Source: Verrucomicrobiales bacterium (lineage in GTDB: Bacteria > Verrucomicrobiota > Verrucomicrobiia > Limisphaerales > UBA9464). From it: 64,000 nt of DNA. The stretch is from assembly GCA_027488845.1 (NCBI GenBank), contig JAIYBC010000048.1:1-64000 (forward strand). The letters run 5' to 3'. The notes below the pieces were generated by a model, which saw only the letters and a program-made list of their open reading frames with translations, was not told where the DNA came from and did no database searches. The translations under genes were made by a program, and so were the position numbers. Of the stretch, positions 28,749-54,544 are shown one piece after another. Every line of letters begins with the position of its first letter. Position 1 is the stretch's first letter.

Positions 28749-28828
28749 AGTGCGGGAGGCGTTGGAAACGGCAGGTATCCGCAGGCCTGCATTGAGTGCA
28801 CTTGGCGCCCGGGAATAGGCTTTCGAGG

Positions 28829-31800
28829 ATGTCCCGGTTCATGGCGCTTCTCCTGGCCCTCGCCGCCAACCTGGCGGCCGGAACGGACCTGCGCATCGAA
28901 TGGCAATCGGTGGTCTTCCCGGAACTCCCGCCAGCGGGTTCCAACCAGCCCGGGGGCGTCCCGATCTACTGGCCCGTCGCGGGAACCTCCCTTCCCGGCG
29001 GGGACGCCTCCATCGTGGCGGCCACCTTTCCGTCCAACACGGTGACGTACCTCGCCCAGGTCGACCCCACCGGAGCCGTCCTGCGGGTGCGGACGGTGAC
29101 CAACGAAACGGTCCTGGCGGGCGCACGGCTGTTCGCGACCTCCGACGGAGGCTACATCGAGGCAGGCCTGGCATCGACCTACCCGAGCCCGGAGGTGGGG
29201 GAGATCCGCCGATTCTCCTCGGACGGCGCCCGTTCCTGGTCCATCACGTGGACCAACCGGGTTCCCGCCGTTTTGCCAACTGTCTTTCCGTCGTCGGACA
29301 ATGCGATGGAGGCGGGTCACATCGCTTTTCCTCACTCCGCCTGGGGGAATGGCGAAGTGGAGGAGGGTTACACCAACCTCTGGCATCTTTCCTCCGTGGG
29401 CCTCGACGGCCGGTTGGCTTGGACCAGCGGGAAGGCGTGGCGTGGACCGATTGCCAACTCGGTGGCGACACGGGACGGCGGAGCCGTGGCCCTGTTCGGC
29501 CAAGGGCACGGAAGGCAGTGCCTGCGGTTGGACCGCTCCGGAAACCCAGTTTGGATTCGTCCGCTGCGGAATGGATCCATCGACACCGAAGCCATCCATG
29601 AGCTGCCGGACGGGGACCTGCTGATGAACGACGGTGCGTGGCTGACCCGGCTGTCGCCGCGGACCGGGGCTGCCCTCTGGAACATCGAACTCGGAAAGCG
29701 AGCCCAGCGGTACCCGACGGACCTCGAGTGGAATCCCCAGTTCGGGCACCCGGCCCCGATCCATTCGGTCGTGCCGATGCCGGAGCGGGCCGGATTCATG
29801 GCGTTGGTTGCCATCCACGCCACCATCGATGGCTCCGACGCCATCACCCGGATTTGTGCCGTCCAGGGCAACGGGGCGGTTTCCTGGACCACCACATTGG
29901 AAAACGAGGACCCGGGGTCGCTCCAGTTCCTGCCCTTGCCAGACGGTTCCGTGGCCGCCGTAACCGATCGGCGGCATCCCCGATTCCGGCATCAGCCCCT
30001 CGCCCTTCGTATCTCCACCAACGGCTGGACGGGACCGGTCCTCCGCTTCGGCGAGAACCCGGACTGGACCACCGGGTTCTCCGCCGAATCCGGCGCCCGG
30101 TTCCTGGAGGGTGGACGCCAGGTGCGGCTGACCGCGGTCGGTACGGTTGATGTTCCCGGATCTCCCCTTCCCCGCTCGGCGACTTCCACCCCCGACCTGA
30201 TGGTTCCCGGCCTGGCGGAATGCACGGTGGAGTTGGACGGGGACCTCCCCCTGTCCTTCAACTGGGGCCGCATCGTTCGAGCCGGGCCGGTTTCCTCCAT
30301 CTCCACCCTATTCGGACAAGGAACCAGCCGCCTCCTCTACGCCTTCTCCCCCGGGCCTGCGGACGGCATTGCGGAAGCCCAGGTCGTGGTTTCCAACCGC
30401 CTGGGAACGCTGGTCAGCCCGCTGCTCTCCACGCGCTTCATTGGCCGGAAGATCACCCGGACTTACCTCCAGCCATTCGCCTCGAACTCCGCTCCCGTTC
30501 TCTATGCGACAGACCACGCCGCGGACGCCCGGCCCCAATGGTTTCAGGACGGTGAACCGATCCCGGGCGCCACCGGCGAAGCGCTCCCCCTGACCGCGGC
30601 CTCCACTGCGATCCGGCACGTCTACGAGTTCCGCACCGCCGCACCAAACCGGACGTTCACAAACACCGTGTTTGAGGTGGAACGGGCCCCGGGAGCATCG
30701 GAACGTTGGAGGCGGGAGGATCGCGTTTCCTGGAACGGAAGGACTGACTTGGTGGACGCCGGCGACGCAGGCGTCTTTGAACTGTTGGACGGACGCCTTC
30801 GCCGGCTGGATGCAGACGGAAGCCTTCTTTGGGAGATTCCCGGCCCGTATCGGCAACTCCTGGGCTTGACCGCCGGCAACGGCGTTCTGGTGCGCTCCGA
30901 TACGGACGGATGGGCCCGGGTGGATCCAACCGGAAGGATCCTGTGGACCGCCGAACGGCCGGAGGGTGGATTTGGGAGCGTCATTCTCCCGACCCCGTCG
31001 GGCGGCTTCTGGAGCGGCCGTCTGGAGGAGAGGACGGCCCACCATTTCTCCGGCGCAGACGGACGACGAACGGCCACCGTCCGGGTGGAACGCACCGGGT
31101 TCTCGCCCGAACCCGTTTGCGACCGGCTTGCGCTGCGACCGAGCGGAGGCGTGGTGATCGCAGGGCATTGGGAGGAAGATCATTGGGTGGACTGGTATTC
31201 CGCCGATGGAGCACGGACCCATCAACAGGTTCACCGATTCGATTCCACAACGGTCACAGCCGCACTGGTGTGCGACGAACGAGATCGCGTCCACGGCCTT
31301 TGGAACGAGGTGCCCGGCGGGGAGGGTTTGCCCCGTGGCCGGGTGGCCGCCGTGGATCCGGAGACCGGTTGGACTTGGTTCGAGGATCTTCCTCCCAGCA
31401 CAACCCAGGCTTGGAGGATCGGCTCTTCCCCGTCCCAGTTGTTCCAGTTTCCCAATGGAGACGTGGTCGCCAACCCACTCGAAAGGCATGGCCAATCCTG
31501 GCTGGCCCGCTGGAACCGCTCGGGCCGCTTGGTCGGATTCGGCCCGACCACTTTCGAGCCCCTGGTCCCCTTCTATGGAAACAGACTCGCGAAGACGGTT
31601 TGGAACGGTGGGCCGTGGCTGGAGGTGATTGGTCCCGATGTGGACGAACGAGAACGGGTTGCGGTCGGTGGGAGCCCAGAATGGCGGACTGGTCTTTCAA
31701 CGGCTTCAAAGGAGGTCCGGATCTGCATCGGAGCCGGAGGCCGGGTCTACCTTCAGGCCCTGGGTATCGACAGGGATCAGGGGCGCCTCCGCGGGAGTCG

Positions 31801-33904
31801 GGTGCTGGTGGCCCTGGATTTCCCGATGGATACGGAACCGACGAACCGGGCTCCGGTCATCACCGTTCAACCGCCGGAGCCGCGGCCTCGCCATCCCGAC
31901 GAGGCCTTGGATCTCCAGGTTGGCGTTTCCGAATGGCCCGGACAGGAGTTCGCCTGGTACCGGAATGGCCAACGCATCCCAGGGGCTTCCAGCTCTCAAC
32001 TGCACTTGGACGCAGGTCCGCCGCAAGAGCTCTTTCCCGTCTTTCCTGGCTTGGACACCTACCAACTGGAGGTCCGCCGTGGGGGACGCGTCTGGCTCAG
32101 TCGCCCCTTCGAGGATCTCCGTTCCAGCCATCCGCGCGAGTCCGCGATCTCCCTGATGGTCGGATCGTCGTTGCCTTCGCCCACGGTCCTACCTCTTCCG
32201 CAAAGGATCGCGGGCTCGTCACCAGAGACTTGGAGCCGGAATGGAACTCCCCTTTCCGACGTGGACTTGGACTTGATGCGTGCCGGCGTCCGGCCATCCG
32301 ACTCCGGCACCTACGCGGCGGCGTCCACGAACTCGCCGCGATTCCACCTCCGAGTCGAGGATCAGGTCCGACTGCAGCCATTGGCGCCGCCCGACCTCGT
32401 CGGTCTTCGGCTCCTGGGGGACGGAGACGACGGAGCCTATCTGGTCCGAAGGGATCCCACGGCCTCCGCCCCGACCTTTGTCCTCGACCATCTGGACCGA
32501 GCGGGCTCCAACACATGGTCTTCCTCCATCAAGGGCGATTCGTTCGCCTTGGCCGGCGAAGCGCCTCGGTTCATCGGCATCGGGTCGACAGGATCCGAGG
32601 GGACAAGGGAGGTTCGCATTGCCCGGATCCATCCAGACGGTCGGATCGAGCCGGTCCACGCCGAAGTCCTGGCCACGAACCGGTACCTGAACTTCCTGGA
32701 GGGACGAGGCAACCGGGACCATGCCGCGTTCATCGTCCATGCCGAGGATTTCGAAGACGCAGACCCACCTGTTCCCTTCCTTCTCCACCAGGCTGTAGAC
32801 GGGACGTTCCGTCGGGAAATCCTCCCCGAAGCGGCCCAGTACTCCCGTTGGGAATCCGATTGGAACGTGGCACCCAACGGCCACGTCTGGCTGGCCACAC
32901 AACAGGGCCTTTTTCTAGGACCGGCCCCATGGATTCGGGTCGATCCTGAACCGTTCCATTCGATCGCCGTCGACGCGTCCGGATGGATCGTCGCCGCGGG
33001 AACCGACCGGATCGCCGCCTTCACCCCCGACGGAAGAGTCCTATGGAATCGGAAGGAGTCTGCCCGGCAGGTTCGAATCAACCGTTTCTCCCAAATCGTT
33101 GGGACCGACCCTGGTGGCACCTTTGTCCTCGACCGGGAGGGTCGGGTGCTCCTGCGCAGTCCGAGATCGGAGGAACGCATCCCGATCCCGGGAACCGGGC
33201 TCTTCCTGACAGGATGGGGAAGCGTCGAGCAGACGCCCTATTTCATGGGAGGCCTCGAGCTGCAAACGGCGACGGGACAGCGGATCTCGACCTTCCATCC
33301 GCCCTCGGGAAGTTTCCACATCCTCGAGGCGGTTCCCACCTCCGCTGGCCGAGCCCTGTTCCTGCTCAAGGACTCGAACCAAGCCCGGAGCCTTTGGAGC
33401 CTTGTCGCTGACGGCATCCCTTCCGGGCCACGTGTCACGTCGCCAGTACCGGACATGGCAACGGTTCCCTTCGAAACCGTTTCCTTGCAGGCCACCGTGG
33501 AATCCAACGAGGGCGGCCCGTTGACCTGGGCTTGGGAATCGGAGGGGGGAGTCCTCAATGGGGCATCCGGCGAAACGTTGCGTATTCCGTCCGTGACCAC
33601 GGTCCAATGGCGCCGGGTCCAGGCATGGAACGGATCCGGGATCGTCACCTCGCCCTGGATCCGAATCCGTCCCACTCCTTCCTCGTTCGGCGTCCCACGC
33701 CTGGATTCCACAGGCCGGCTGGAACTCCGATTCGCGGGCAATCCGGTCCCCCACCGACTGGAGGGGAGCCAAGACCTGATCCACTGGAACCCGCTAGGCT
33801 ATCTCACGGATGGGACCGGAAGTGCCGTTTCAGGGGTCGGGCTGGCAAAGCCGGATACAGGAGAGGCATTCCGGTTCTATCGGGCGTTGGAGATGCCGCG
33901 CTGA
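28829..33904 (+). CDS. Giant secreted beta-propeller/Ig-repeat protein
   Basis: The 1,691-residue protein begins with a signal peptide (MSRFMALLLALAANLAAG). PQQ/Trp-docking-like units recur, with a G-x-x-LW motif at about 290 (GAALWNIELG), 664 (GSLLWEIPGP), 703 (GRILWTAERP) and 1400 (GRVLWNRKES). Ig-like units with a W-x-x-(N/D)-G-x-x-IPGA turn appear at about 569 and 1041, an Ig with PSDSGTYAA near 1145, and another at about 1565. It ends with a tail of the 'RLEGSQDLIHW...FRFYRAL' type shared with other exported proteins here. No catalytic motif is seen. The most likely place is outside the cell or on the outer membrane. The ATG at 28829 follows CGAGG at a suitable distance. Confidence 0.8.
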   Translation: MSRFMALLLALAANLAAGTDLRIEWQSVVFPELPPAGSNQPGGVPIYWPVAGTSLPGGDASIVAATFPSNTVTYLAQVDPTGAVLRVRTVTNETVLAGARLFATSDGGYIEAGLASTYPSPEVGEIRRFSSDGARSWSITWTNRVPAVLPTVFPSSDNAMEAGHIAFPHSAWGNGEVEEGYTNLWHLSSVGLDGRLAWTSGKAWRGPIANSVATRDGGAVALFGQGHGRQCLRLDRSGNPVWIRPLRNGSIDTEAIHELPDGDLLMNDGAWLTRLSPRTGAALWNIELGKRAQRYPTDLEWNPQFGHPAPIHSVVPMPERAGFMALVAIHATIDGSDAITRICAVQGNGAVSWTTTLENEDPGSLQFLPLPDGSVAAVTDRRHPRFRHQPLALRISTNGWTGPVLRFGENPDWTTGFSAESGARFLEGGRQVRLTAVGTVDVPGSPLPRSATSTPDLMVPGLAECTVELDGDLPLSFNWGRIVRAGPVSSISTLFGQGTSRLLYAFSPGPADGIAEAQVVVSNRLGTLVSPLLSTRFIGRKITRTYLQPFASNSAPVLYATDHAADARPQWFQDGEPIPGATGEALPLTAASTAIRHVYEFRTAAPNRTFTNTVFEVERAPGASERWRREDRVSWNGRTDLVDAGDAGVFELLDGRLRRLDADGSLLWEIPGPYRQLLGLTAGNGVLVRSDTDGWARVDPTGRILWTAERPEGGFGSVILPTPSGGFWSGRLEERTAHHFSGADGRRTATVRVERTGFSPEPVCDRLALRPSGGVVIAGHWEEDHWVDWYSADGARTHQQVHRFDSTTVTAALVCDERDRVHGLWNEVPGGEGLPRGRVAAVDPETGWTWFEDLPPSTTQAWRIGSSPSQLFQFPNGDVVANPLERHGQSWLARWNRSGRLVGFGPTTFEPLVPFYGNRLAKTVWNGGPWLEVIGPDVDERERVAVGGSPEWRTGLSTASKEVRICIGAGGRVYLQALGIDRDQGRLRGSRVLVALDFPMDTEPTNRAPVITVQPPEPRPRHPDEALDLQVGVSEWPGQEFAWYRNGQRIPGASSSQLHLDAGPPQELFPVFPGLDTYQLEVRRGGRVWLSRPFEDLRSSHPRESAISLMVGSSLPSPTVLPLPQRIAGSSPETWSRNGTPLSDVDLDLMRAGVRPSDSGTYAAASTNSPRFHLRVEDQVRLQPLAPPDLVGLRLLGDGDDGAYLVRRDPTASAPTFVLDHLDRAGSNTWSSSIKGDSFALAGEAPRFIGIGSTGSEGTREVRIARIHPDGRIEPVHAEVLATNRYLNFLEGRGNRDHAAFIVHAEDFEDADPPVPFLLHQAVDGTFRREILPEAAQYSRWESDWNVAPNGHVWLATQQGLFLGPAPWIRVDPEPFHSIAVDASGWIVAAGTDRIAAFTPDGRVLWNRKESARQVRINRFSQIVGTDPGGTFVLDREGRVLLRSPRSEERIPIPGTGLFLTGWGSVEQTPYFMGGLELQTATGQRISTFHPPSGSFHILEAVPTSAGRALFLLKDSNQARSLWSLVADGIPSGPRVTSPVPDMATVPFETVSLQATVESNEGGPLTWAWESEGGVLNGASGETLRIPSVTTVQWRRVQAWNGSGIVTSPWIRIRPTPSSFGVPRLDSTGRLELRFAGNPVPHRLEGSQDLIHWNPLGYLTDGTGSAVSGVGLAKPDTGEAFRFYRALEMPR

Positions 33905-34497: not shown

Positions 34498-35352
34498 TCA
34501 AGGGGCAAACCGGTAGAACCGCGACGAGACCGAAGGATCGATCGCCTCCACGGAGGTGACCGGGGTCCAATTCGTGGGGCCCAGGAACGGCGCCGCCTCG
34601 ACGCCGTTCCAAAGGGCCAAGGTGTCGAGAACCAGCCGAGGACCGGCCTCCCCTCTCACGAAACGCACGGGACGGAACCGGTTGTCGACCCCGACCCGGA
34701 GTGGCTCGCCGGGCCGTCCAAGGCCGAAGCCCTTGATTCGGACCTTGAGGGAATCGTCGCCCGCCTGCTGGGGACCGAAATTCCAGTGGCCTTGGAAACG
34801 GAGGGTCAACCATCCCTGTCGGGCCTCGGCCCCGTCACCGACCCTGAAAAAAACGCTGTGGGGTTCACGTGCCGAAAACGCTTCGGACGGAATTCCGATG
34901 TTCGCGACGGTTCCCCCAATCACGGAAACGATGTTTCTTCCAAAACCACCCAATACAACGGTGCTCCGCCCGACCGAACAGACCAAGACCGGGCTCGAAG
35001 TCCATTGCGGAGGGTCGCCCTGCGGATTCTCGCTTTCTGGCCAAAGGACCCGCACACCCCAGTTTCCCGAATCGGCTCGGATAAAGACACCTTCCCTCGG
35101 CTCGAAGGTCAGATCGCGCCTCCATTCAGGGCCGACGCCGAACGGTTCCGGAAGGGCCGGATACCGGAGCGACGTCTCCACCAACTCCAACTCGGGCGCG
35201 CCATCCCCATCGAGGTCGACCGGAAAGCGGTTGACCGACGTCGACGATTTGGGCTCCAGCCCAGGCGACGCGCCCGTGGTCGAAAGCAGGAATCCGGAAA
35301 GGATGCCGAAGGAAAGAAGGGCAAGCCCCGGGCGTCGTGTCGTGGACTTCAT
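34498..35352 (-). CDS. Secreted protein with 'FYR' C-terminal tail
   Basis: The 284-residue protein has an N-terminal export signal (about 8-28, GLALLSFGILSGFLLSTTGAS), then RFPVDLDGDGAPELELVE, a calcium-loop-like DxDGDG segment. The rest is beta-rich with no catalytic motif, and it ends SVEAIDPSVSSRFYRFAP, the same closing module as in the 1,691-residue protein. Exported, function unknown. The ATG at 35352 precedes the signal sequence; the frame is open 37 codons further upstream. It is transcribed toward the giant gene, with the REP-like element between them. Confidence 0.72.
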   Translation of the reverse strand: MKSTTRRPGLALLSFGILSGFLLSTTGASPGLEPKSSTSVNRFPVDLDGDGAPELELVETSLRYPALPEPFGVGPEWRRDLTFEPREGVFIRADSGNWGVRVLWPESENPQGDPPQWTSSPVLVCSVGRSTVVLGGFGRNIVSVIGGTVANIGIPSEAFSAREPHSVFFRVGDGAEARQGWLTLRFQGHWNFGPQQAGDDSLKVRIKGFGLGRPGEPLRVGVDNRFRPVRFVRGEAGPRLVLDTLALWNGVEAAPFLGPTNWTPVTSVEAIDPSVSSRFYRFAP

Positions 35353-35551
35353 GATGCGATCAGCCTTTGGACCACACTTTTCAGAATGCTGACTCCGGAA
35401 CGGTTGGCAAGATGGCAGGGGGCCGCGGAAGACCGATGTCGTTTCCGCAATCTCCGCCGCCAATGGACGGATCCCTCATGGCTTCATGAAGGGCGCGAGG
35501 CGGAAGCGGGCGTTAGGGCCAACGAAACGGGTGGCCTTGGGCGCTCCTGTT
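35353..35551. other. Non-coding stretch, possibly remnant of a C-terminal secreted-protein tail
   Basis: Together with the doubtful gene to its right, 526 bp here lack a secure gene. On the minus strand one short frame (about 35476-35598) ends RFVGPNARFRLAPFMKP, which looks like a decayed 'RFYRLAP' tail of the module seen in neighbouring exported proteins. This suggests a degraded gene but is not proof. Confidence 0.35.
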
Positions 35552-35848
35552 TCACGGAGCCGCTTCCAGCTTGGGCCCGGCTTGGAGGAAGTGTCCTGCA
35601 TGGATCCGATCCGGGGCCGACGATGATTCGGATGTGGGTCGCGCCGCGACGATCCCGATCCGGCCAGGCCGTACGCTGTGGATCGGGACCGGTTCCAGGA
35701 CCGCCGCGCGGAATCCGGTGGCGGGCAGGAAATGTGCAACGATCTCCGGCCGGCTGAACCGGTCCCGTGATCGCAACCGGCTCGTCCCGAAGCCGGCCCA
35801 AAAGGCGGCCGTTTCCGTCCGGAGGCGCAGGGTGGATTTAATCGTCAT
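35552..35848 (-). CDS. Doubtful 98-residue hypothetical protein
   Basis: The frame opens MTIKSTLRLRTETAAFWAGF and runs to AGPKLEAAP. About 75% of its codons end in G or C, lower than neighbouring genes, and no domain, signal peptide or helix pattern is recognised. Its start codon lies inside the TTAA half-site array before the response-regulator gene, which would make it a divergent target of that regulator if real. The alternative is that it is a piece of a frameshifted gene with the tail described at 35476-35598. Confidence 0.28.
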   Translation of the reverse strand: MTIKSTLRLRTETAAFWAGFGTSRLRSRDRFSRPEIVAHFLPATGFRAAVLEPVPIHSVRPGRIGIVAARPTSESSSAPDRIHAGHFLQAGPKLEAAP

Positions 35849-35854
35849 TTAAGG
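35837..35854. promoter_or_regulatory. Phased TTAA half-sites before the response-regulator gene
   Basis: Two half-sites, TTTAATC and TTTAAGG, have their TTAA cores at 35838-35841 and 35849-35852, exactly 11 bp apart. They end 25 bp before the regulator start codon. Direct repeats with one-turn spacing are the usual binding pattern of OmpR/PhoB-type regulators. The same half-site is repeated after the kinase gene. Confidence 0.55.
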
Positions 35855-35878
35855 TCGTCCCGGATAACTTGATCCGAG

Positions 35879-36559
35879 ATGCGGATCCTCGTGGTCGAAG
35901 ACGAACCAAAGGTCGCGCGGTTCCTGGAGCGCGGCCTCCGTCAGCAGGCGCATGCCGTGGACCTCGCGTTCGACGGAGAGGATGGGCTGCGCTTGGCCTT
36001 CGAGAACGACTACGACGTGGTGGTCCTCGACGTCATGCTTCCGGGGAGGGACGGCTTCTCGGTCCTCACGGAACTCCGCACCGCACAGAAGGCGGTCCGC
36101 GTGCTCATGCTCACCGCCCGCGACGAGGTCGGCGACCGGGTCCGGGGCTTGGACCTCGGGGCCGACGACTACCTCGTCAAACCGTTCGACTTCGACGAGT
36201 TCCTCGCACGCATCCGGGCCCTCATCCGCCGCGCGGCCTCCGAGGGACAGACCACCCTGCGTTGTGCGGATCTGGAGCTGGACCCCCGGACGCGGCAGGT
36301 GCGGCGTGGCGGAAAACCGGTTCAGCTTACGGCAAAACCCTACGCGATACTCGACCTGCTCTTGCGCCGTCAGGGACAGGTCGTCAGCCGCACGGAGATT
36401 TCGGAACACGTCTGGGACCAGCGCTTCGATCCCATGGGCAACGTCATCGACGTCACGGTCCACCAGCTCCGGGACAAGGTGGACAAGGGATTCGAACCCC
36501 GCCTGATCCACACCGTCCGCGGGGTCGGCTACGTGCTGCGAGCCGGGGAACAGGCATGA
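35879..36559 (+). CDS. OmpR/CusR-type response regulator
   Basis: The 226-residue regulator has a receiver domain (1-118) with acidic pair Glu7/Asp8, phospho-acceptor Asp51 (VVVLDVMLPGRDG), Thr in MLTAR and the conserved Lys in LVKPFDF, followed by a winged-helix DNA-binding domain (about 128-222) ending IHTVRGVGYVLRAGE. The best overall resemblance is to CusR/CopR/QseB-like regulators. Its stop overlaps the kinase start (ATGA). Half-sites suited to such a protein lie directly upstream and downstream of the pair, suggesting autoregulation and control of the next gene. The signal is unknown. Confidence 0.94.
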   Translation: MRILVVEDEPKVARFLERGLRQQAHAVDLAFDGEDGLRLAFENDYDVVVLDVMLPGRDGFSVLTELRTAQKAVRVLMLTARDEVGDRVRGLDLGADDYLVKPFDFDEFLARIRALIRRAASEGQTTLRCADLELDPRTRQVRRGGKPVQLTAKPYAILDLLLRRQGQVVSRTEISEHVWDQRFDPMGNVIDVTVHQLRDKVDKGFEPRLIHTVRGVGYVLRAGEQA

Positions 36560-38082
36560 GACGCAGCTCCGTGATCTGGTGGTTCCTGGGGGCGGCCGCC
36601 GTCGCCCTGATCGGCATCAGCCGGTCCCAACTCGACCTCGCCAACCGTCGCGACCGCGACCACGCCGAATTGATCCTCAACCTCTCGGCCCGGACACTCG
36701 CCGGCCAGGTCGATCCGCGGAAGCCCGCCTACGACGGGGGATTCGTCGCCCCTTCCGGCGGCCACTTCGGGCGTCCGCTGGTCCTGCTCTACGATCTCGC
36801 AGGTCGCGAGGCCAGCCGCGCCGCAGGCTCGGATCCCGTGCTTCCCTTGAACGCCTCGGCGGCCCGCCTCGTGCCCGCCGGTCTCCTGCGCCCGATGTCG
36901 GGCGAGACCCCGCTGGCACCGGCCCCGCCCACCACGTCCGGGCTCGCCGAGGAACCAGGCCCCAGCAGTCTCGACCACGCGACCGATGTCCTCGGAAGCG
37001 CATGGCTCTCGGAGATGAAGGGAACCGACGGCAGGGACTGGCTCGTCGCCACCGCGCCGGTCCGCTTCCGGGACCCTTCGGGGCGGCTGAACCTCGTCAG
37101 CGCCTGGATCCAAGCCGCCCTTCCCCTGGACGAAGTCCTCCGGGCTTCGCGCGAACGCACGGTCCGCTTCCTTGTCTTCTGGGCGGCCGCCGGTTCCCTG
37201 ACGCTCCTCGCCGCTTTGTGGTCCGTCCGCGGACGCGTTTCGTTGGCGGCGGTCGCCGACGCGGCCGACCGCATGCAGATCGCGAAACTCTCCTCCACCC
37301 GCCTTCCCGAGACCGTGGACGATCCGGAGGCCCTGCGCCTTGTCCGGGCCTTCAACCGCCTGTTCGACCGCGTCGCCGAGATCCATGCCGGCCAGCAGCG
37401 GTTCGTCGCCGACGCCGCCCACGAACTCCGCACGCCCTTGACCATCCTGCGCGGTGAAATCCAGGTGGCCCTGCGCGAACCGGGGAACCATCCGCTCCTG
37501 ATCGACACCCTCAAGAGCAGCCTCGACGAGTCGCTCCATCTCAGCCGGCTCATCGACAGCCTCCTGACCCTCGCCCGTGCCGATGCCGGCACAGGCCTCG
37601 GGAAACGCGAGCAAGTCGATCCCGCGGATCCCATCCGCCGCGTTCTCGAACGTCTAGGGCCGATCGCTGGTGAACGCAGCGTCACCCTGAAGTTCACCGG
37701 CGACGACGAGGGAACGCGCCCGGCTCTATTCGCCGACCCTGCCGCCCTCGAGAGGATCCTCTTCAACCTCACGGAGAACGCGGTGAAACACTCTCCGGCG
37801 GGAAACCCGGTCGAGGTCATCCTTTCGGTCGACGCCGACGAGGTGCGGTTCCAGGTCGTCGACCGCGGCATCGGCATCGCGCCCGAACACCTTCCGAGAA
37901 TCTTCGATCGATTCTACCGCATCGATGCCGCGCGACGCCGGATGGACGGCGGAGCCGGCCTGGGCCTGGCCATCGTGAAGACGCTCGTCGAGGCGCACGG
38001 GGGGGCCGTTTCCGTCGAGAGCGAAGTCGGTACCGGCAGCCGCTTCACGATCGTGCTGCCCCGGAGTACTCGGGAGCCTTAA
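36556..38082 (+). CDS. Membrane sensor histidine kinase
   Basis: The 508-residue kinase has a membrane segment at about 6-24, a periplasmic domain of roughly 170 residues (to about 195) containing a Pro-rich stretch, a second membrane helix at about 200-220, a HAMP-like linker, the DHp box FVADAAHELRTPLT with His289, and a complete ATPase domain (NLTENAVKHS, DRGIGIAPEH, GGAGLGLAIV). The layout is that of CusS-type kinases, with no metal-binding His/Met cluster evident in the sensor domain. It overlaps the regulator gene by 4 nt. The periplasmic domain is not one I recognise, so the signal is open. Confidence 0.93.
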   Translation: MRRSSVIWWFLGAAAVALIGISRSQLDLANRRDRDHAELILNLSARTLAGQVDPRKPAYDGGFVAPSGGHFGRPLVLLYDLAGREASRAAGSDPVLPLNASAARLVPAGLLRPMSGETPLAPAPPTTSGLAEEPGPSSLDHATDVLGSAWLSEMKGTDGRDWLVATAPVRFRDPSGRLNLVSAWIQAALPLDEVLRASRERTVRFLVFWAAAGSLTLLAALWSVRGRVSLAAVADAADRMQIAKLSSTRLPETVDDPEALRLVRAFNRLFDRVAEIHAGQQRFVADAAHELRTPLTILRGEIQVALREPGNHPLLIDTLKSSLDESLHLSRLIDSLLTLARADAGTGLGKREQVDPADPIRRVLERLGPIAGERSVTLKFTGDDEGTRPALFADPAALERILFNLTENAVKHSPAGNPVEVILSVDADEVRFQVVDRGIGIAPEHLPRIFDRFYRIDAARRRMDGGAGLGLAIVKTLVEAHGGAVSVESEVGTGSRFTIVLPRSTREP

Positions 38083-38116
38083 GCCGATTTAAGGTTCGGT
38101 TAACCGGCGTTTAAGG
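38077..38116. promoter_or_regulatory. Four-site phased TTAA array before the 2,172-residue protein gene
   Basis: TTAAG, TTAAG, TTAAC and TTAAG begin at 38079, 38089, 38100 and 38111: spacings of 10, 11 and 11 bp. The first overlaps the kinase stop codon. CCTTAA and TTAAGG at 38077-38094 also form a perfect dyad with a 6-bp gap. The array sits 110-150 bp before the next start codon, where an activator would bind. It matches the two-site array before the regulator gene. Confidence 0.6.
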
Positions 38117-38226
38117 CCGGAAATGGGAGGCTCTTCGCACCGAGTCCGGGGACGCCTCAGACCGACGCCGCCCGAACGACCTGGCGGCATCCCGATCCAG
38201 GGCGGAGACCGGATCGGGACGTCGCC

Positions 38227-41200
38227 ATGAGACTCCTTCCCCTCCGCACCACCGTCGCCGTCCACCTCACCCTGACCGCCGTCGCGGGACTTTGCGCCGC
38301 CGTGATCGCGCAGAATCCGGTCCACCAGGAGGCGGCCTTGGACGGCTCGTCGCTGGACGGGACCCGGGTGGAACGCCCGTCCGAGGCCGCCCGCGCTGGC
38401 AAGCCCCAACCGGACGTCGCGCCGAAGGGAGGAACGGCTCCTGCGCCCTTCTCGATCCGGCCGATCGACCCGATCTTCGGCCGCGAGTTCGTCCAGATCA
38501 CGCAGGACATCGGCCTGGTCGAACCGCCGGCTCCGGGGCGGACGGTGGTCTTCTCGGCCAGCGGACTGCCGCCGGCGGCGACCTTCTCACCGGTCACGGC
38601 GCAGTTCTCCTGGTTGCCGGGCGAATTGGACGGAGACACGAGCCACACGATCACGGTCACCGCGATCGACAACGGCATCCCGCCACAGACCAACTCGACG
38701 ACGTTCGACATCCATGTCGCGGAGGCGAACCGGCTGCCGGTCGCCGCACCGGTCGCCGCCCTGGGCGTCGAGCTGGGGCGGACGCTGGAGCATTCCATCC
38801 TCGTGACCGATGACGACCAGCCGCCACAGTCCATCGGCTTCCGGTTGCTGAGCGGGCCGGCGGGCCTGGACATCTCCCCGACCGGGATCATCACATGGAC
38901 GCCCACGGCGTCGCAGACCGACGAACTCCACTCGGCGTCGGCCGGAGTCGGCGACGGCGTCGGCGAGGTCGTCGTGCCGTTCAGCGTCTACGCGCGTTCC
39001 CAGCCCCAGCCGCCGCAGGCGCCGCCGCCGATCTCCACGGTGCAGTTGGGGCAACGGTTGGCCCTCGCGTGGACCAACCTTCCAGGAAGCTTCGCGGTCC
39101 AGGCCTCGACCAACCTCCTCACTCCGGTCTGGCGCACGCTTCAGGCGCCCACCGCGGCGACCAACGGGCTTCGACTCCTGGCCCTCGACACCACGAACGC
39201 CACCGAGTTCTTCCGCTTGAAGAACCTCGATGGCATCCGCCTCACGGCGGCGACGCCCCGGAACAGCCGGCTGTCGCCGGGAACCCACCTGTTCGTTGAA
39301 CTCGGATTGTCCGGCGGCCCCGCCAACGACGACCTCGTCGAGATCATCGAGCGCGGCGCATTCTCCGAGGTGATCCGCCGGATTCCCGCCTCGCTGCTTG
39401 AGGACGTGGACGGCTCGGTCGGCTTCTTCCTGGACGGCGATTCCCTCCCCGTCCCCCTCGCCACGATCGGCGTCCGACTCGTCGATTCCTCGGGAGCCTC
39501 CCGCGGCCTGTTCGCGTTCGATGTCTCCAACGCCGCCGCCGTCCCCGCCGGAGCGGCGCCTTCGGTCCTGTCGCTGGCATGGGCCGGTCCCACCGGACAG
39601 GTCCGCCGCCCGTCCGACACCAATTCCTTGGCCACTCCCGCCCTGGCGGTGACCGTGTCCGATCCCGACGGCGATCTCATCCGACTGGGCGTGAGAATCA
39701 CCGCACCGGATCGGCAGACCCGTTCATGGGAAAGCACCGTCTCGAATCTCGGGACCGGTCCGACCAACCTCTTCCTCTATCCCACCGAGTTTGGTCCCGG
39801 GAGCGTTCCGGGATTCTGGGAAGCCGAGGTCACCGCGATCGACTCCTCGGGCCGTGCTTCGGCACCGGTGAAATCGGAACTGTTTCTCTCCGCGTCCACG
39901 TTTTCCGAAGCCGCGGAAGCCCCGCGGATCGACTCCTTCTCGCCGCAGCGTGGACCCGCCGGCGCGATCGTGGAGATCCTCACCCGGAACGTTCCGCCGG
40001 CCGATCTCTCCAACGCAGTCGTCCGCATCGGCGGCCGCATCGCCAGGGCGGCGGAAGTGTCCTCGAACGTGTTCCGCGCCATCGTCCCGACGGACACCGA
40101 CGGAGGCTTCATCGAACTGCGGACGCCGCAGGGCCGGACACGCACCCCGACGCGGTTCACGGTGTTGCCCGACGCCGGGATCGAACCCGCGGTGGCGCAC
40201 CTGCTGGCAGGTCAATCCATGCGCTTCGGCATCGACCGCCGGCTCCCGGCCGGTTCTGAGGTGACGTGGTCGCTTGTCGGTCCCGGCTTCCTCTCGACCA
40301 ACGGGATGTTCACGGCTCCAGCCAGCCGTCAACACCGGACCAACGCCACCATACGCGCCACGATCTCCATTGCCGGGACCAACCTCCTCGCCGAAGCCCA
40401 TGCCGCCATCGAACCGGCTCCGTTGAACCGGGGCGCCGCGACCGTCTCCGCCGTCCTCGGCGGGGTGGTCTGGTCCGACGATGCGCTGGCCCGGATCGAG
40501 ATCCCAGCCGGGGCGCTCCCGACGAACAGCACGATCTCCGTCCACCGTCCGAGGCCCGCCGAGATGCCGGCCGCGCCCCAGAACTCCTCGCTCGTCGGCG
40601 CCATCGAGTTCGGCCCCCCGGGCACGGTTTTCTCGCAGCCGGCCACGGTCCTGATCCCGCTCGACCGCTCGCTGGCGCCCGGGACTTCCCTGTCGCTGCG
40701 CGTCTGGAATCCGCAATCCGGACAGTGGCTGGACGAGGGCGTCGTCGCCGCGGTCGAGCCCGACGGACAGAACGCCCGCGCGCTTGTCCGACACTTCACC
40801 CTCTTCGGCCTCTTCGGCGACCCCTGCACCGTCGGCGCGATTCCGGTCCTCGGTTCGATCACGCCCGCCAGCATCCTCGAGGGCGAGGAACGCCCGATCC
40901 TGGTCGAGGGAAGCGGACTTGATGGCGACGTTTCGTTCGATTTGGTCAACGCCGACGGTTCTCCGCTCGAAGGGCTCGGCCATGGACCGTTCGTCCGGGC
41001 ACGCCTCTCGCCCTTCGCCGAGGACGGGACACGCGCGGCCTTCATGCTGGATTGTCCGGTGCTGCCCGGACTTTCGGCGGGCTCCACGAGGACGATGATG
41101 GTCCGGGTGTGGCGGTGCGGCGGGCCCATCGCGAGCCTTCCGCTCACGATCGTGGGCCTGGATGAATTCGACGCCGCACACCACATGGCGGGATTTCCCG

Positions 41201-44200
41201 GGGAACGGACGACCAACCTCTATTCCGAGATCGTCGTGGACCGGGACCTGTTGGGAATCCGCCGCGACGTCGTGGATCTTCACGCGACGCGACGCGTGGT
41301 CATCTCCTCCCGTGTGGACCTCTCGGGAAGGAGGGGCATGGACGCCGAACGGCATGATCCGGGCGTCGCTTTCGGGGGCGACACCCGCCAAGGCGTGAAT
41401 GGCGGGCGCAACGGCCCGGGAGCCGACGCAGTCTTCTCCGCGGTCTACGACCTGCCCGGGAACCGGCTTCGGTTCGGCTTCGGCGGCACGCGCGGGGCGG
41501 ATCTCAACAGCTTCTCCGAGCTCTCCGAAAGGATCGGATGCGTGGGCGGCGACGCGCTGGAATGCTTCGAGGAACTGATCGCGGAACTGGTGAACGACCC
41601 GTTCGACGGATTCGAGGAAGCGCGCCCGAACTTCGAGAGGCTCCTCGCCTCCATTCCGGACGGACGCCGGGGCCATCCCGGACTCTGGCACGGCGCCCCC
41701 GGAGCTTGGTACACGCTCCGGACCAGCGGCGTGGTCAGCTCCAACCCGGGATTCCGGAGGACCTTCGGACCGGGCTCGGGCGGCGGCGGCGGCGGCGCCT
41801 CGGGCCGGATTCTGGGATCCTTCACCTCCACCCTCGGAGGCGGAGCCGGCGGCGAAGGCGGGGGTGCGATCCGCTTCCTCTCAGCCCGTGACTTGGTCTT
41901 CACGGGATCCATCCGGGCCAACGGCGGTGACGGCGGGTCGGGAAGCACGGACCGGTTCGGCTTCTCGGGCGGCGGAGGGGGCGGAGGGGGCGGCGGCGCG
42001 GTCCGACTTGTCGCAGGCAGGAACGTGACCACGTCGCCCACGGCCACCATCGAGACCCGCGGCGGATTCTCCGGTCAGGGCGGGTTCGCCACGTTTGTCC
42101 GCAGCATCGGATTCGGGCTGATGATCGAGATGCCCTACGCGGAACCGACGGAGCCGGCCTCGGGCATGGCAGTCATGGAAGGCTCGCCCTTCCCCGAGGA
42201 GCAGTTCGGCAACCAGATAACCGGCTTCAACGTCCTCTCCGTCTTCACCCGGCGCGATCCGGACCTTTTCCTGCGCGATCCCGCCGGCAACGTGGGGCTC
42301 AACCCGGACCGTCCCTACATCGTCGTCCGCCGGGCCGACGGTTCGGCTTCGCGGCGCTGCTACCTCCACACCGTCGGCGAGCGGTTCCGGGTGAACCTCG
42401 TTCTCTTCCCGGGCGCCAACGTCGTCGAGATCGGTGATCCGGGGGAGGAACTCCGCCATCGCCACATCGTCTGCCTGAGCGGCATCGACACCGACGGCGA
42501 CGGCCTGTCCAACCAGGACGAACTGGCCCTCGGCTCGGACCCCAACTCGGCCGACACCGACGGCGACGGCGTGGCCGACATCGACGAGGTGGCCACGGGA
42601 ACCTCGCCCACAACCGCGGACACGGACGGCGATCTCCTTCCCGACGTGGACGAAGCCCGGCTCGGCAGTCTTGCAACCGATCCGGACACGGATGGTGATG
42701 GGCTGTGGGACAGCCTCGAGCACTACCTCGGCCGGTCACCGGTGCTGGGAGGCCGCAGCGATTTCCAATACGCCGAGGGCGACATCTTCACGGTGGTCAC
42801 GAACCGGCAGGGCGAACGGCTTCTCGCCCTGCTGGATCCGTTCTCTGGACGGCTGGGAGCCATCGGCCGCCTTCCCGGCAACCGGGGCGACGGCATCACC
42901 TTCGACCATCGCGGGACGCTCTACCTCGCCCAGGGGACGGAATTGTTCGAATGGGCGGGATCGGTCCCGGCGGAACGGCCCGACGTTCCCAACCGCGGCG
43001 GAGGATGGAGACTCCTTGCGGCTTCGTCCGGCTCGTCCCCCGGGAGTTCGGGCGGCAACATCGTCGGCCTCGGTGCTGCGGTCGGCGGCAGTTCCCCGCC
43101 GGTGCCGGGTCGGATCCGGGACATGAGAAGCATCGTTTCGAACGACGGGTCTCTCATGTTCTCCAAACTGGGGGACATCCGATCGCAGAACGCCCTCGGG
43201 GGGTTCACCCTGCCCATCGCGGCCGGGCCGTTGACCTTCGACCGGTCTCCACACGGATTCCGGCGAATCCATGGAGTCGCCACCGCGGGAGGAATCAACG
43301 GGAACACCTTCCACCTGGCGGGCGACAACCGGATCGAGACCAACTTCGTTCCCGCGTTCGTTCCCGGAAACGGCGTGGGCCAACCGGTCAAGGCCCTCGC
43401 CTTCGGGCATCCGACGGGCTACTTCGCGCTGCTCGGTTCCGCCGGCGACGACGTGGTGCAGCAGATCAGACCCTTCGCCAGCGGAACCAGCGGACCGGCC
43501 TTCCCGCTCGGCCGTGCGGACGGACTGGCGATGCTGCACCTGAACACCAACGACTTCATCGCCACCACGGCGACGAAGGAGGTCCTCCGGATCACCCTGG
43601 ATGCGGCGCAGGCGACGATGACGGTCACGCCCCTGTCCTCGACGGTCGCGCCCTGCCATCTCCTGGCGCGTGTGCCGTGCGTGGACGGCTGCTTCAACCC
43701 GAACCGGGTCTCCTCCGCCGGACCGCTCGGTCCGACCTTCACGACGGCCGGGATCCGCAACGGCGACTTCAACGGGGACGGCGTCCAGGACCTCGTGGTC
43801 GTCGGCATTTCCACGAACACGGCGCGCGTCAACATCCTCCATGGCGACGGCACGGGGCGGTTCACCAATGCCATCGACCACGTCCTCGGGCCCGGCTCGA
43901 TCGGTTCCTCCGGCAAGGTGGAACTGGCACGGGTCGATGCCGACAACCGTGACGACCTTGTCGTCTCTTGGACGACTGCCACCGGGTCCGGCCGCATCTC
44001 CGTCCTGCCCGGGACGGCCGACGGCCGGTTCGCGCCGCCGGGGCCGCCGCTCGTCACGGGGAACACCTCGGACTTCGCCGCGGGGGCATTCAACGGCTCC
44101 GCGACGGACGACCTGGTCTTGGCCGGCAACAACGTCACGCTGGTCCCGGGAACCGCCGTCGGGACCTTCGACCTCGCCTCCGCGCAGCCGTTGCTGCCCG

Positions 44201-44745
44201 CCAACCGCGCCAACCTCCACGTGGCCCTCGGCGACATCGACGGCGACGGCGTGAACGACCTGGTCCGCGTCGGGCAGTCGATCGCGACCCACCTCGGTGG
44301 CGCCACGACGGCAGGCTGGCAATCGGTCTCCGGATTCGGCGGCGGCGACGTGCTCGAGTTCGGCGACTGGGAAGGAAACGGCACGCGGGACCTGTTCTTC
44401 AGCGGCTACAGCGGATTCGTGACGGTGGTTCCCGGCAACGGGAACGGGACGTTCGCCCCCGCGGTCAGCGTCTACTCCGGGCAGCTCTACGGGAGCTCTC
44501 CCAAGTTCGCCGTCGGCGACCTCGACCTGGACGGCCGCAGCGATGTGGTCATGCCCGATCCCCTGCGGCCGCGCGCCCTGGTCCTGACGACGGTCCGCCC
44601 CGCCGCGGGCTTCGGGGTGCTGACGGAACTCCCCCTCGGGCTCATCCCGGTCGCCGCCCGCATCTTCGACACGAACGGCGACGGCCTACCGGACGTGGTC
44701 CTGATCTCAAACGCGGGCGTCATCGAAGTCGTGTTGGGCCGCTGA
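38227..44745 (+). CDS. Giant secreted mosaic protein (Ig, IPT, TSP3, FG-GAP modules)
   Basis: The 2,172-residue product has a signal peptide (1-28, ending AVIAQ). Modules in order: cadherin/putative-Ig domains at about 77-170 and 172-258; an 'ASTNLLTPVWRTL...TEFFRL' module at about 287-335; an IPT/TIG domain (SFSPQRGPAGAIVEI) at about 565-646; a ZU5-like segment at about 745-864; Gly-rich runs at about 1181-1280; four thrombospondin-3 type calcium loops (DTDGDGLSNQDE, DTDGDGVADIDE, DTDGDLLPDVDE, DTDGDGLWDSLE) at about 1421-1498; a propeller-like region about 1513-1818; and at least six FG-GAP/VCBS units (for example NGDFNGDGVQDLVVVG, GDIDGDGVNDLVRVG) at about 1844-2160. It is probably calcium-binding and cell-surface or secreted. 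Phased half-sites upstream suggest control by the adjacent two-component pair. Confidence 0.85.
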   Translation: MRLLPLRTTVAVHLTLTAVAGLCAAVIAQNPVHQEAALDGSSLDGTRVERPSEAARAGKPQPDVAPKGGTAPAPFSIRPIDPIFGREFVQITQDIGLVEPPAPGRTVVFSASGLPPAATFSPVTAQFSWLPGELDGDTSHTITVTAIDNGIPPQTNSTTFDIHVAEANRLPVAAPVAALGVELGRTLEHSILVTDDDQPPQSIGFRLLSGPAGLDISPTGIITWTPTASQTDELHSASAGVGDGVGEVVVPFSVYARSQPQPPQAPPPISTVQLGQRLALAWTNLPGSFAVQASTNLLTPVWRTLQAPTAATNGLRLLALDTTNATEFFRLKNLDGIRLTAATPRNSRLSPGTHLFVELGLSGGPANDDLVEIIERGAFSEVIRRIPASLLEDVDGSVGFFLDGDSLPVPLATIGVRLVDSSGASRGLFAFDVSNAAAVPAGAAPSVLSLAWAGPTGQVRRPSDTNSLATPALAVTVSDPDGDLIRLGVRITAPDRQTRSWESTVSNLGTGPTNLFLYPTEFGPGSVPGFWEAEVTAIDSSGRASAPVKSELFLSASTFSEAAEAPRIDSFSPQRGPAGAIVEILTRNVPPADLSNAVVRIGGRIARAAEVSSNVFRAIVPTDTDGGFIELRTPQGRTRTPTRFTVLPDAGIEPAVAHLLAGQSMRFGIDRRLPAGSEVTWSLVGPGFLSTNGMFTAPASRQHRTNATIRATISIAGTNLLAEAHAAIEPAPLNRGAATVSAVLGGVVWSDDALARIEIPAGALPTNSTISVHRPRPAEMPAAPQNSSLVGAIEFGPPGTVFSQPATVLIPLDRSLAPGTSLSLRVWNPQSGQWLDEGVVAAVEPDGQNARALVRHFTLFGLFGDPCTVGAIPVLGSITPASILEGEERPILVEGSGLDGDVSFDLVNADGSPLEGLGHGPFVRARLSPFAEDGTRAAFMLDCPVLPGLSAGSTRTMMVRVWRCGGPIASLPLTIVGLDEFDAAHHMAGFPGERTTNLYSEIVVDRDLLGIRRDVVDLHATRRVVISSRVDLSGRRGMDAERHDPGVAFGGDTRQGVNGGRNGPGADAVFSAVYDLPGNRLRFGFGGTRGADLNSFSELSERIGCVGGDALECFEELIAELVNDPFDGFEEARPNFERLLASIPDGRRGHPGLWHGAPGAWYTLRTSGVVSSNPGFRRTFGPGSGGGGGGASGRILGSFTSTLGGGAGGEGGGAIRFLSARDLVFTGSIRANGGDGGSGSTDRFGFSGGGGGGGGGGAVRLVAGRNVTTSPTATIETRGGFSGQGGFATFVRSIGFGLMIEMPYAEPTEPASGMAVMEGSPFPEEQFGNQITGFNVLSVFTRRDPDLFLRDPAGNVGLNPDRPYIVVRRADGSASRRCYLHTVGERFRVNLVLFPGANVVEIGDPGEELRHRHIVCLSGIDTDGDGLSNQDELALGSDPNSADTDGDGVADIDEVATGTSPTTADTDGDLLPDVDEARLGSLATDPDTDGDGLWDSLEHYLGRSPVLGGRSDFQYAEGDIFTVVTNRQGERLLALLDPFSGRLGAIGRLPGNRGDGITFDHRGTLYLAQGTELFEWAGSVPAERPDVPNRGGGWRLLAASSGSSPGSSGGNIVGLGAAVGGSSPPVPGRIRDMRSIVSNDGSLMFSKLGDIRSQNALGGFTLPIAAGPLTFDRSPHGFRRIHGVATAGGINGNTFHLAGDNRIETNFVPAFVPGNGVGQPVKALAFGHPTGYFALLGSAGDDVVQQIRPFASGTSGPAFPLGRADGLAMLHLNTNDFIATTATKEVLRITLDAAQATMTVTPLSSTVAPCHLLARVPCVDGCFNPNRVSSAGPLGPTFTTAGIRNGDFNGDGVQDLVVVGISTNTARVNILHGDGTGRFTNAIDHVLGPGSIGSSGKVELARVDADNRDDLVVSWTTATGSGRISVLPGTADGRFAPPGPPLVTGNTSDFAAGAFNGSATDDLVLAGNNVTLVPGTAVGTFDLASAQPLLPANRANLHVALGDIDGDGVNDLVRVGQSIATHLGGATTAGWQSVSGFGGGDVLEFGDWEGNGTRDLFFSGYSGFVTVVPGNGNGTFAPAVSVYSGQLYGSSPKFAVGDLDLDGRSDVVMPDPLRPRALVLTTVRPAAGFGVLTELPLGLIPVAARIFDTNGDGLPDVVLISNAGVIEVVLGR

Positions 44746-53402: not shown

Positions 53403-54461
53403 TCAGGTTCCCGCCGGTTCCTGCTGGGAAATGCAGTGGAATGATCCCAGGCCCCAGATCAACTCCGTGGAATCCAGCCCTTCCACCCGATGGCTGGGGA
53501 AAACCGACTGCAGGATCTCGATCGCACGGCGGTCGTTGGAATGGCGATAGGTCGGGACGACCACCAGGCCGTTGGCGATGTAGAAGTTGGCGTAGCTCGC
53601 GGGCAAACGCTGACCGTCGTGCTCGACCCTTCCAGGCATCGGCAACTCGACCACCCTCAGCGGCCGTCCGTCCTGATCCTGCATCGTTCGCAGGCGCTTG
53701 AGGTTCTCCTGGAGCAGGTCGTGGTTTTCGTCCGAAGGATCCTCCTCGACGACGGTGACCACGGTTTGGGGATCCACGAAACGGGTGAGGTCGTCGACAT
53801 GGCCGTCGGTGTCGTCGCCGACGATGCCGTCGCCCAACCACAGGATGTGGCGGACCCCGAGGTAGGCCTTCAGATGGTCCTCGATCCGTGTCCGATCGAG
53901 GTGGGGATTGCGGTTGGGATTCAGGAGGCAGGCCTCGGTGGTGATCAGGGTACCGGCGCCGTTGACCTCGATCGAGCCGCCTTCCATGACGATACCCGGG
54001 GAATGGAGCGGCAACCGTCGCAGCGCGGCGACATGCTTGGGGACGGCGTCGTCGAGGTCGTACGGCGGGTACTTGTCACCCCAGGCGTTGTAGCCCCAAT
54101 CCACCACCGCGCGTTCGCGGACTCCTCCACGGTCACGGACCAGGAAGATCGGACCATGGTCGCGGCACCACGGTTCGTAGGCGGGGAAATGATGGAAGAA
54201 GACCCGTTCCATCGGGACGTTCCGTTCACGGAGCAGACCCCGGACCCATTCCTCCTTCTCGCCGTTCCAGACGTTGATGTTCACGTCCTCCACCTGGACC
54301 AGAAGCCGGATGAACTCGGCGTACACGTCCGGGACGCCCTCGTATTTGTCGGGGAAGCTGATTCCCTCGGGACGAGGCCAGGTCAGCCAGGTGGAGCGAT
54401 GCGGCTCCCATTCCGCGGGCATGCGGAAACCTAGGGCCGTAGGGGAGTCACTGTGATTCAT
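53403..54461 (-). CDS. Agmatine deiminase/peptidylarginine deiminase family
   Basis: The 352-residue guanidino-group modifying enzyme has the pentein-fold residues: RMPAEWEPHRSTWLTWP, WCRDHGPIFLV, VMEGGSIEVNG, DTDGHVDDLTRF with His221, and catalytic Cys343 in GSFHCISQQ. It would convert agmatine to N-carbamoylputrescine. No other polyamine genes lie close by. Start ATG 54461 gives a family-length protein and lies 83 nt from the next gene. Confidence 0.92.
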   Translation of the reverse strand: MNHSDSPTALGFRMPAEWEPHRSTWLTWPRPEGISFPDKYEGVPDVYAEFIRLLVQVEDVNINVWNGEKEEWVRGLLRERNVPMERVFFHHFPAYEPWCRDHGPIFLVRDRGGVRERAVVDWGYNAWGDKYPPYDLDDAVPKHVAALRRLPLHSPGIVMEGGSIEVNGAGTLITTEACLLNPNRNPHLDRTRIEDHLKAYLGVRHILWLGDGIVGDDTDGHVDDLTRFVDPQTVVTVVEEDPSDENHDLLQENLKRLRTMQDQDGRPLRVVELPMPGRVEHDGQRLPASYANFYIANGLVVVPTYRHSNDRRAIEILQSVFPSHRVEGLDSTELIWGLGSFHCISQQEPAGT

Positions 54462-54544
54462 CCGGCCGCGGAGTGAAGCCGAACGACGGAAGGTTGCAAC
54501 GGTGTTGATGGAGGCCCGGAAAAGACCCTCCCGGAAAAGCCCCT

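Follow-up and report, generated by a model that had tools for sequence, protein, structure and literature searches.

The question raised by this locus is what a 2172-residue protein built from many kinds of module does, and whether the two-component pair encoded directly upstream is its regulator. The locus lies in a 64,000-nucleotide stretch of a Verrucomicrobiales bacterium (assembly GCA_027488845.1, contig JAIYBC010000048.1, positions 1 to 64,000), hereafter the window, from a genome of 5.39 Mb (G000). The present study suggests that the giant gene encodes a large exported scaffold or binding protein that is expressed on demand by the adjacent pair, a reading that we consider fairly probable. 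It draws on the architecture and conservation of the protein, the linkage of the three genes, rare boxes shared by two of their promoters, and a promoter geometry that is fixed in several genomes of the order.

The gene itself was proposed by an earlier, sequence-only reading as an open reading frame (ORF) at 38227-44745, and both the ORF and its coordinates hold. In a whole-gene comparison with the same-genus orthologue in G013 (96% identity), nonsynonymous divergence (dN) is 0.018 and synonymous divergence (dS) 0.064, and the corresponding values for the FG-GAP part are 0.004 and 0.048. This low dN relative to dS identifies the ORF as a maintained, coding protein under purifying selection, and its N-terminus suggests that it is probably exported. 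The gene and its parts, all on the + strand, are as follows.

38227..44745, +, giant multidomain protein gene (ATG start, 2172 aa, product probably exported)
38227..38310, +, signal-peptide-like N-terminus, residues 1-28 (judged by eye; hydrophobic stretch scored)
38404..39012, +, two immunoglobulin (Ig)-like (He_PIG) domains, residues 60-262 (Pfam, model; lineage-variable part)
39013..39906, +, unnamed beta domains, residues 263-560 (structure model; aligned in G108 and G075)
39922..40110, +, TIG/IPT domain, residues 566-628 (Pfam)
40174..40431, +, bacterial Ig-like domain, aBig/Big_2-like (weak), residues 650-735 (Pfam, model)
40456..40677, +, ZU5-like domain, residues 744-817 (Pfam below cut-off, profile match)
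40840..41160, +, second IPT-like domain, residues 872-978 (no Pfam match; assigned by eye from alignment and model)
41197..42156, +, conserved module holding glycine-rich stretches, residues 991-1310 (alignment)
42481..42750, +, four TSP3-type calcium loops, residues 1419-1508 (Pfam, alignment)
42751..43683, +, probable first propeller, residues 1509-1819 (DUF6923-like in one relative; low-confidence model)
43684..44742, +, seven-bladed FG-GAP propeller, residues 1820-2172 (Pfam, AlphaFold model, structure alignment)

The module list of the sequence-only reading survives in large part. FG-GAP_3 (E 9e-21, four stretches), TSP3_bac (E 2.7e-7; 30.7 bits against a curated cut-off of 25) and TIG (E 7e-5) pass their Pfam cut-offs; He_PIG (E 2e-4) and ZU5 (E 0.077; 13.7 bits against a cut-off of 21) lie below theirs. 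For ZU5 the case is made at the profile level, where profile A1, built from seven sequences over core residues 686-1488, matches ankyrin ZU5 structures with a best E of 1.2e-4, making a ZU5-like fold likely. The four TSP3-type loops do stand back to back, and they also align in the relatives from G034, G028, G108 and G075, with three present in the core-only paralogues. The glycine-rich runs, which had been seen as interruptions, instead sit inside a conserved module that retains 31-52% identity in relatives besides G013, a position that rules them out as insertions.

Residues 60-985 were modelled as a chain of consecutive beta domains with a mean predicted local distance difference test score (pLDDT) of 78, and Foldseek matched the N-terminal half mainly to Ig, cadherin, and macroglobulin-type chains, at TM-scores below 0.3. 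The AlphaFold model of residues 978-2172 is poor except at the TSP3 loops and in the FG-GAP propeller, possibly owing to disturbance of the alignment by partial propeller rows. Another propeller probably precedes the FG-GAP one, at residues 1509-1819: this segment matches DUF6923 in one of five relatives (E 6e-5), and the window protein's own segment gave no match in the same domain scan.

The C-terminal tandem, likened in the sequence-only reading to integrin-type propellers, is modelled as a complete seven-bladed propeller, with a mean pLDDT of at least 70 in 28 of 35 ten-residue blocks (range 46-88). It aligns with integrin alphaIIb (9e8a) at Z 27.3 over 329 residues (root-mean-square deviation 3.5, 16% identity); because other propellers score similarly (Z 25-28), this alignment shows fold, not function. 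Bacterial integrin-type propellers, as PMC3192720 describes them, likewise have seven FG-GAP repeats and carry the calcium signature in all seven blades of the bacterial examples. In the giant protein seven sequential repeats form the predicted propeller, but even a loose D-x-[DNE]-x-[DNG] calcium pattern is found in only five of the seven blades, and, again relative to PMC3192720, the propeller is embedded in a 2172-residue chain. The criteria of PMC3192720 also include a structure-derived FG-GAP/Cage motif in every blade, and the modelled C-terminal part is assigned here as an FG-GAP propeller only. Protein Data Bank sequence searches with profile A6 and with the FG-GAP part returned no matches, and no sorting or anchor domain was matched in Pfam or NCBIfam scans of the giant protein.

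The order of the modules is conserved well beyond the genus. A whole-protein search of 59 genomes, including G000, found long or end-aligned relatives in four others: G013 (residues 1-2172), G034 of another genus (68-2172, 46% identity), G028 (two contigs, covering 64-1652 and 1627-2172) and G012 (1-402, ending with its contig). G072, of a third genus, matches over residues 37-1180. Two other families of the order contribute G108 and G075, whose alignments both start near residue 263; that of G108 runs to the C-terminus, and that of G075 stops within the first propeller, at the end of its contig. G110 retains a C-terminal fragment (51%), its frame interrupted by a stop. The first Ig pair varies among the relatives, and the chain order from about residue 263 is kept in the two relatives from other families. 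The protein is thus a mosaic in that several module types share one chain, as had been proposed, and not in the sense of a chance assembly. The core has a wider distribution: its profile matches in 77 of 293 genomes of the order, and more than the TSP3 end in six (G000, G028, G034, G021, G075 and G108), a lower bound since three candidates were scored per genome. Among eight named loci in a genome-contig collection, the best five are from Verrucomicrobia assemblies, two of them labelled Akkermansia, and the remaining three have a short partial match only. The window's own genome also encodes a shorter paralogue (G000:C36) limited to the ZU5-to-TSP3 core (33%); upstream of it (L045 10956-14168, -) lies a serine/threonine kinase with WD40-type repeats, a neighbor that suggests a different kind of control for this paralogue.

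The two-component pair noted directly upstream of the giant gene is borne out by domain matches. Its genes, and the putative promoter elements that accompany them, are the following.

35837..35854, +, box before the regulator gene, TTTAATCGTCATTTAAGG, two 11-bp repeats (pattern rarity)
35865-35870, +, candidate -10 of the regulator gene, TAACTT (16 nt past the last repeat, as in others)
35879..36559, +, OmpR/PhoB-type response regulator, 226 aa, Asp51 (Pfam Response_reg and Trans_reg_C)
36556..38082, +, sensor histidine kinase, 508 aa, H-box His289 (HATPase_c and HisKA, both on the longer ORF)
38079..38121, +, putative operator before the giant gene (TTAA cores at 38079, 38089, 38100 and 38111)
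38127..38132, +, candidate -10 of the giant gene, GAGGCT (offset common to 13 of 14 order promoters)

The regulator and kinase genes overlap by 4 nt (ATGA), and both phospho-acceptors are kept. Within the family, a search of 50 genomes at E<=1e-60 finds the kinase in four (G000, G013, G012 and G072), and each of these also has the giant gene, whole or as a piece at a contig end; neither was found in 44 others, part of which were searched with residues 686-1488 only, so that a piece of the gene could be missed. In G072 the contig bearing the regulator and kinase stops at kinase residue 461 and the contig bearing the giant gene opens at residue 462, and in G075, of another family, the regulator, kinase and giant genes are consecutive. 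The pair thus accompanies the giant gene in two further genomes of the same genus (G013 and G012), in another genus and in another family, a linkage that disfavors an accidental neighbor. The pair looks like the giant gene's own regulator. A scan of viral contigs with the regulator found no relative.

Regulators of the OmpR type bind half-sites 11 bp apart, and repeats of this period stand before both the regulator gene (TTAA cores at 35838 and 35849) and the giant gene, where three clean 11-bp repeats start at 38089 and a transcript start at 38139 is predicted from the candidate -10. The shared box is rare. TTTAAGG-N15-TTTAAGG, allowing up to two mismatches, occurs once in the window against an expectation of 0.01, and KTTAAN6TTTAAGG has two matches in the 5.39-Mb genome, at the regulator promoter and at 38099, with none in a backwards control; one mismatch adds one further match, against two in the control. 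As the latter pattern was written after both sites had been seen, it speaks for rarity, not for discovery. Both boxes are kept in G013 and G012, a conservation that says little because the gap between the kinase and giant genes is 96.5% identical in G000 and G013. In G072 both boxes are changed together, with TTTCAGG in place of TTTAAGG. For the window by itself, shuffling the mononucleotides of single gaps gave no significant result (p 0.175), so the claim of a repeat rests on the set of loci.

That set consists of 16 kinase loci, compared after the near-duplicates G013 and G012, and G165:C402, where no repeat was seen, had been left out. In 8 of the 16, the 240 nt that follow the kinase stop contain a triple 11-bp repeat, against a mean of 0.6 and a maximum of 3 in 20 null resamplings, and ten other repeat periods from 7 to 17 each reach at most 2. 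The giant gene of G072 is a ninth case by eye that fails the formal repeat test, and in seven of these nine the ATG stands exactly 50 nt from the first repeat. A search of 293 genomes with TTCATN6TTCATN6TTCAT, a pattern derived from the kinase loci, gave 44 matches in 25 of them, including some with no locus or an incomplete one; the backwards control gave 4, confined to a single genome. Of the matches, 40 instances in 30 loci were examined. Nine have identical first and second units, none with an ATG at +50, and 11 lie on one repeat-rich contig (L178), one of them with an ATG at +50. In the remaining 20 the ATG is exactly at +50 in 11, every other offset from 28 to 119 occurring at most twice, and with the pattern-source loci L159, L166 and L169 removed the count is 8 of 17. 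Over all 40 instances there are further ATG peaks, of 8-9 at offsets such as 36, 69, 80 and 91, which arise mainly from the repeat-rich contig. An xAnnnT hexamer stands at +38 in 11 of 11 instances with the ATG at +50 and in one of the nine others. Fourteen promoters with this spacing were collected, 10 from the pattern and four from kinase loci, some of them mutual orthologues; they have A at -11 (14/14), T at -7 (13/14) and C at -1 (13/14). A -10 hexamer has a canonical position relative to the transcript start, and by this placement transcription is predicted to begin on the A of the ATG, so that the +50 layout elsewhere in the order would give leaderless mRNAs. Perfect 11-bp tandem repeats of the TTCATCTGTGT kind, unlike the boxes, were seen at L155, L171, L172, L180 and other loci.

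The same promoters are associated with relatives of the pair. A regulator or kinase relative lies within 1.5 kb of 7 of the 10 pattern promoters (4 of 7 when the three pattern-source ones are removed), and the genomes of the other three (L152, L154 and L177, in G116, G183 and G047) have the kinase elsewhere. Seven of the eight genomes with +50 promoters are among the 13 of 293 that have the kinase at E<=1e-55, as against none of the 17 genomes that have the pattern and, by the author's sorting, no +50 promoter; since five candidates were scored per genome, 13 is a lower bound and 0/17 is soft. Without the four pattern-source genomes the kinase is present in three of four (p 8e-5), and when G259 (L162) and G038 (L178), sorted among the 17, are counted the other way, the figure is 7 of 10 (p 6e-9). 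Nine of the 20 instances have no ATG at +50; among their loci L157, L173 and L176 have a regulator or kinase relative (34-57%) within the 3-kb locus, and L158 and L167 have weak matches (26-27%).

Eight of the 10 pattern-promoter genes begin with a hydrophobic, signal-like stretch; L153 is the kinase itself, and in L181 the first 42 residues lack a hydrophobic stretch. Among the frames behind other boxes, one reaches at least 2562 residues and has DUF11 and He_PIG domains, another has 1442 residues with CARDB and an InlB-type repeat, and some have about 145. At L143 and L148 (G236) and at L170 and L181 (G151) a box promoter stands on either side of the pair, one before a gene for a small protein with a signal, beyond the kinase, and the other before a gene that diverges from the regulator gene. 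The regulators' recognition helices follow the boxes, HQL occurring with TTMAG boxes (3/3) and xH(L/V) with TTMAT boxes (10/10), in a table compiled by hand from the main or last repeat; mixed arrays exist, and the lineages are related. On these grounds, OmpR-type pairs in the order may each be tied to a single gene or a few, mostly encoding large exported proteins, by one stereotyped promoter that gives leaderless mRNAs; helices and boxes would change together, making each pair a private switch, and the window's giant protein would be one cargo. On this generalization we are evenly divided. Neither such a cassette nor such a promoter is described in the titles and abstract openings of the papers listed, in several cases the best 8-15 only, a scope that excludes most subscription journals.

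Parallels exist for parts of this arrangement. PmrA sites have N5 spacing, as does the regulator-gene box, TTTAAT-N5-TTTAAG. This box also fits the YTTAAK half-sites of the PmrA repeats (PMC10927774), and its 11-bp period is that of the direct repeats bound by PhoP of Mycobacterium tuberculosis, an OmpR/PhoB-family regulator (PMC4832192). Unlike in PhoP and PmrA, the order promoters have three repeats with a fixed -10 and ATG geometry and adjoin mostly signal-like genes. The myxobacterial proteins CglD and MtsD have TSP3 stretches in common with the giant protein, which nevertheless scores far below their family cut-offs (21 against 400 and 19 against 800 bits).

In the proposed mechanism, the kinase would sense an envelope or environmental cue and phosphorylate the regulator, which would bind the 11-bp direct repeats before its own gene and the giant gene and activate, rather than repress, both. 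The giant protein would then be exported through its Sec-type signal, its TSP3 and FG-GAP loops would be stiffened by calcium, and the C-terminal propeller would be the likely ligand-binding end. Export of this kind, calcium-stiffened loops and a terminal propeller together make it probable that the protein acts extracellularly, in a binding or matrix role that depends on calcium. Our best guess is extracellular binding of a surface, matrix or glycan. The sequence-only reading had proposed calcium-dependent adhesion or surface assembly, and it is supported in part: the calcium-type loops (four in TSP3, five of seven FG-GAP blades), the signal-like N-terminus and the pair directly upstream are borne out, whereas adhesion or surface assembly is an inference, with no anchor domain matched in Pfam or NCBIfam and with neighbors of the gene that vary by lineage.

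Several observations weigh against this scheme. The models of the first propeller and the glycine-rich module are too poor to use. The ATG of the giant gene lies 138 nt, not 50, past the first clean repeat and 88 nt beyond the predicted transcript start, so a leader is expected in the window; its repeats and -10 have the offsets of the leaderless class and its ATG does not, and the G072 relative does have its ATG at +50. The boxes, the +50 spacing and the -10 were spotted by eye first and counted afterwards. No box is found after the kinase, by test or by eye, in 7 of the 16 kinase loci, and G268 (helix FSI, with TTAAT repeats before the regulator) was left out of the helix table. L162, with an ATG at +50, precedes a gene that by eye resembles a respiratory-chain gene, not one for an exported protein; with its CTGTG-type repeat it was excluded from the 14 promoters. 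The giant gene is present in G034 and G028, where the kinase was not found; in G028 and G108 the stretch retrieved showed no relative of the pair, and the 160 nt before the giant gene showed no repeats, and the G034 contig starts too close to the gene for its upstream side to be judged. The family can hence do without the pair. The relatives do not represent independent lineages, and the genome searches scored few candidates each (3-30), which makes absences soft.

Three other explanations compete with a pair-controlled scaffold or binding protein. The giant protein could be, rather than an adhesin, a polysaccharide-binding or polysaccharide-handling component whose binding domains hold sugar polymers for breakdown. 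Its neighbors, which vary by lineage, lend this some color: a sugar-type ABC permease follows the giant gene in the window, and immediately upstream of the G108 relative stand a GH59/F5-F8 protein and a fusion of GH88 with polysaccharide lyase 8 (PL8) (L109 14-6710), which look like a glycosaminoglycan-type degradation set. Yet no carbohydrate-active or carbohydrate-binding Pfam family is matched in the window protein or in four scanned relatives, and the two scanned neighbors in G034 are DUF11 proteins, leaving this alternative unlikely. A shade more doubtful is the view that the pair is a generic metal-response system and a mere neighbor, the shared box reflecting autoregulation and read-through only. 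The regulator does pass the heavy-metal regulator model TIGR01387 (282.9 bits, cut-off 279.2), in likeness to CusRS and CzcRS, and a closely related pair (L147, G130:C197; regulator 72.5%), whose regulator gene has a comparable box, TTTAATCGTCTTTTCAGG, and which has no box after the kinase, stands before a small gene that is ion-channel-like by eye and not before a giant gene. The window kinase, in contrast, falls below the cut-off of the sensor kinase model TIGR01386 (cztS/silS/copS; 230.3 against 292.55 bits), and the scanned neighbors are not efflux genes. CusR sites are palindromic, whereas the window box is a direct repeat.

Read-through would leave unexplained why the giant gene has a box and a candidate -10 of its own immediately in front of it, why both boxes are altered jointly in G072, and why the repeat-ATG geometry recurs before other genes, mostly with signal-like starts. 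Last, the protein might be a neutral mosaic of common secreted modules of the Verrucomicrobia with no specific role, as the many long frames with Ig- or TSP3-type matches in these genomes could suggest. The 46% end-to-end conservation with another genus, the module order kept in two other families and the purifying selection largely refute this, and we consider it very improbable. Expression of a large exported scaffold or binding protein by its adjacent pair remains the preferred reading.

Other genes in the window include, upstream, one whose 1702-aa product (28796-33904, +) matches Ig and DUF5122 weakly and may be a second giant exported protein. A 321-aa ORF (34501-35463, -) with a VDLDGDGAPELELV loop and no Pfam match lies between this gene and the giant gene, and at 53406-54611 (-) there is a peptidyl-arginine/agmatine deiminase-type gene (PAD_porph, E 5e-120).

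Very long frames containing Ig, TSP3, and propeller modules are numerous in genomes of the Verrucomicrobia, and the proposed dedicated switch beside one of them, with its readable operator, would show, from regulator and promoter to target, how such a gene may be controlled. The promoter geometry, if confirmed, would provide a ready test of leaderless translation in this order of the Verrucomicrobia, and the covariation of helices and boxes would offer a natural set for studying the specificity of OmpR-type regulators.

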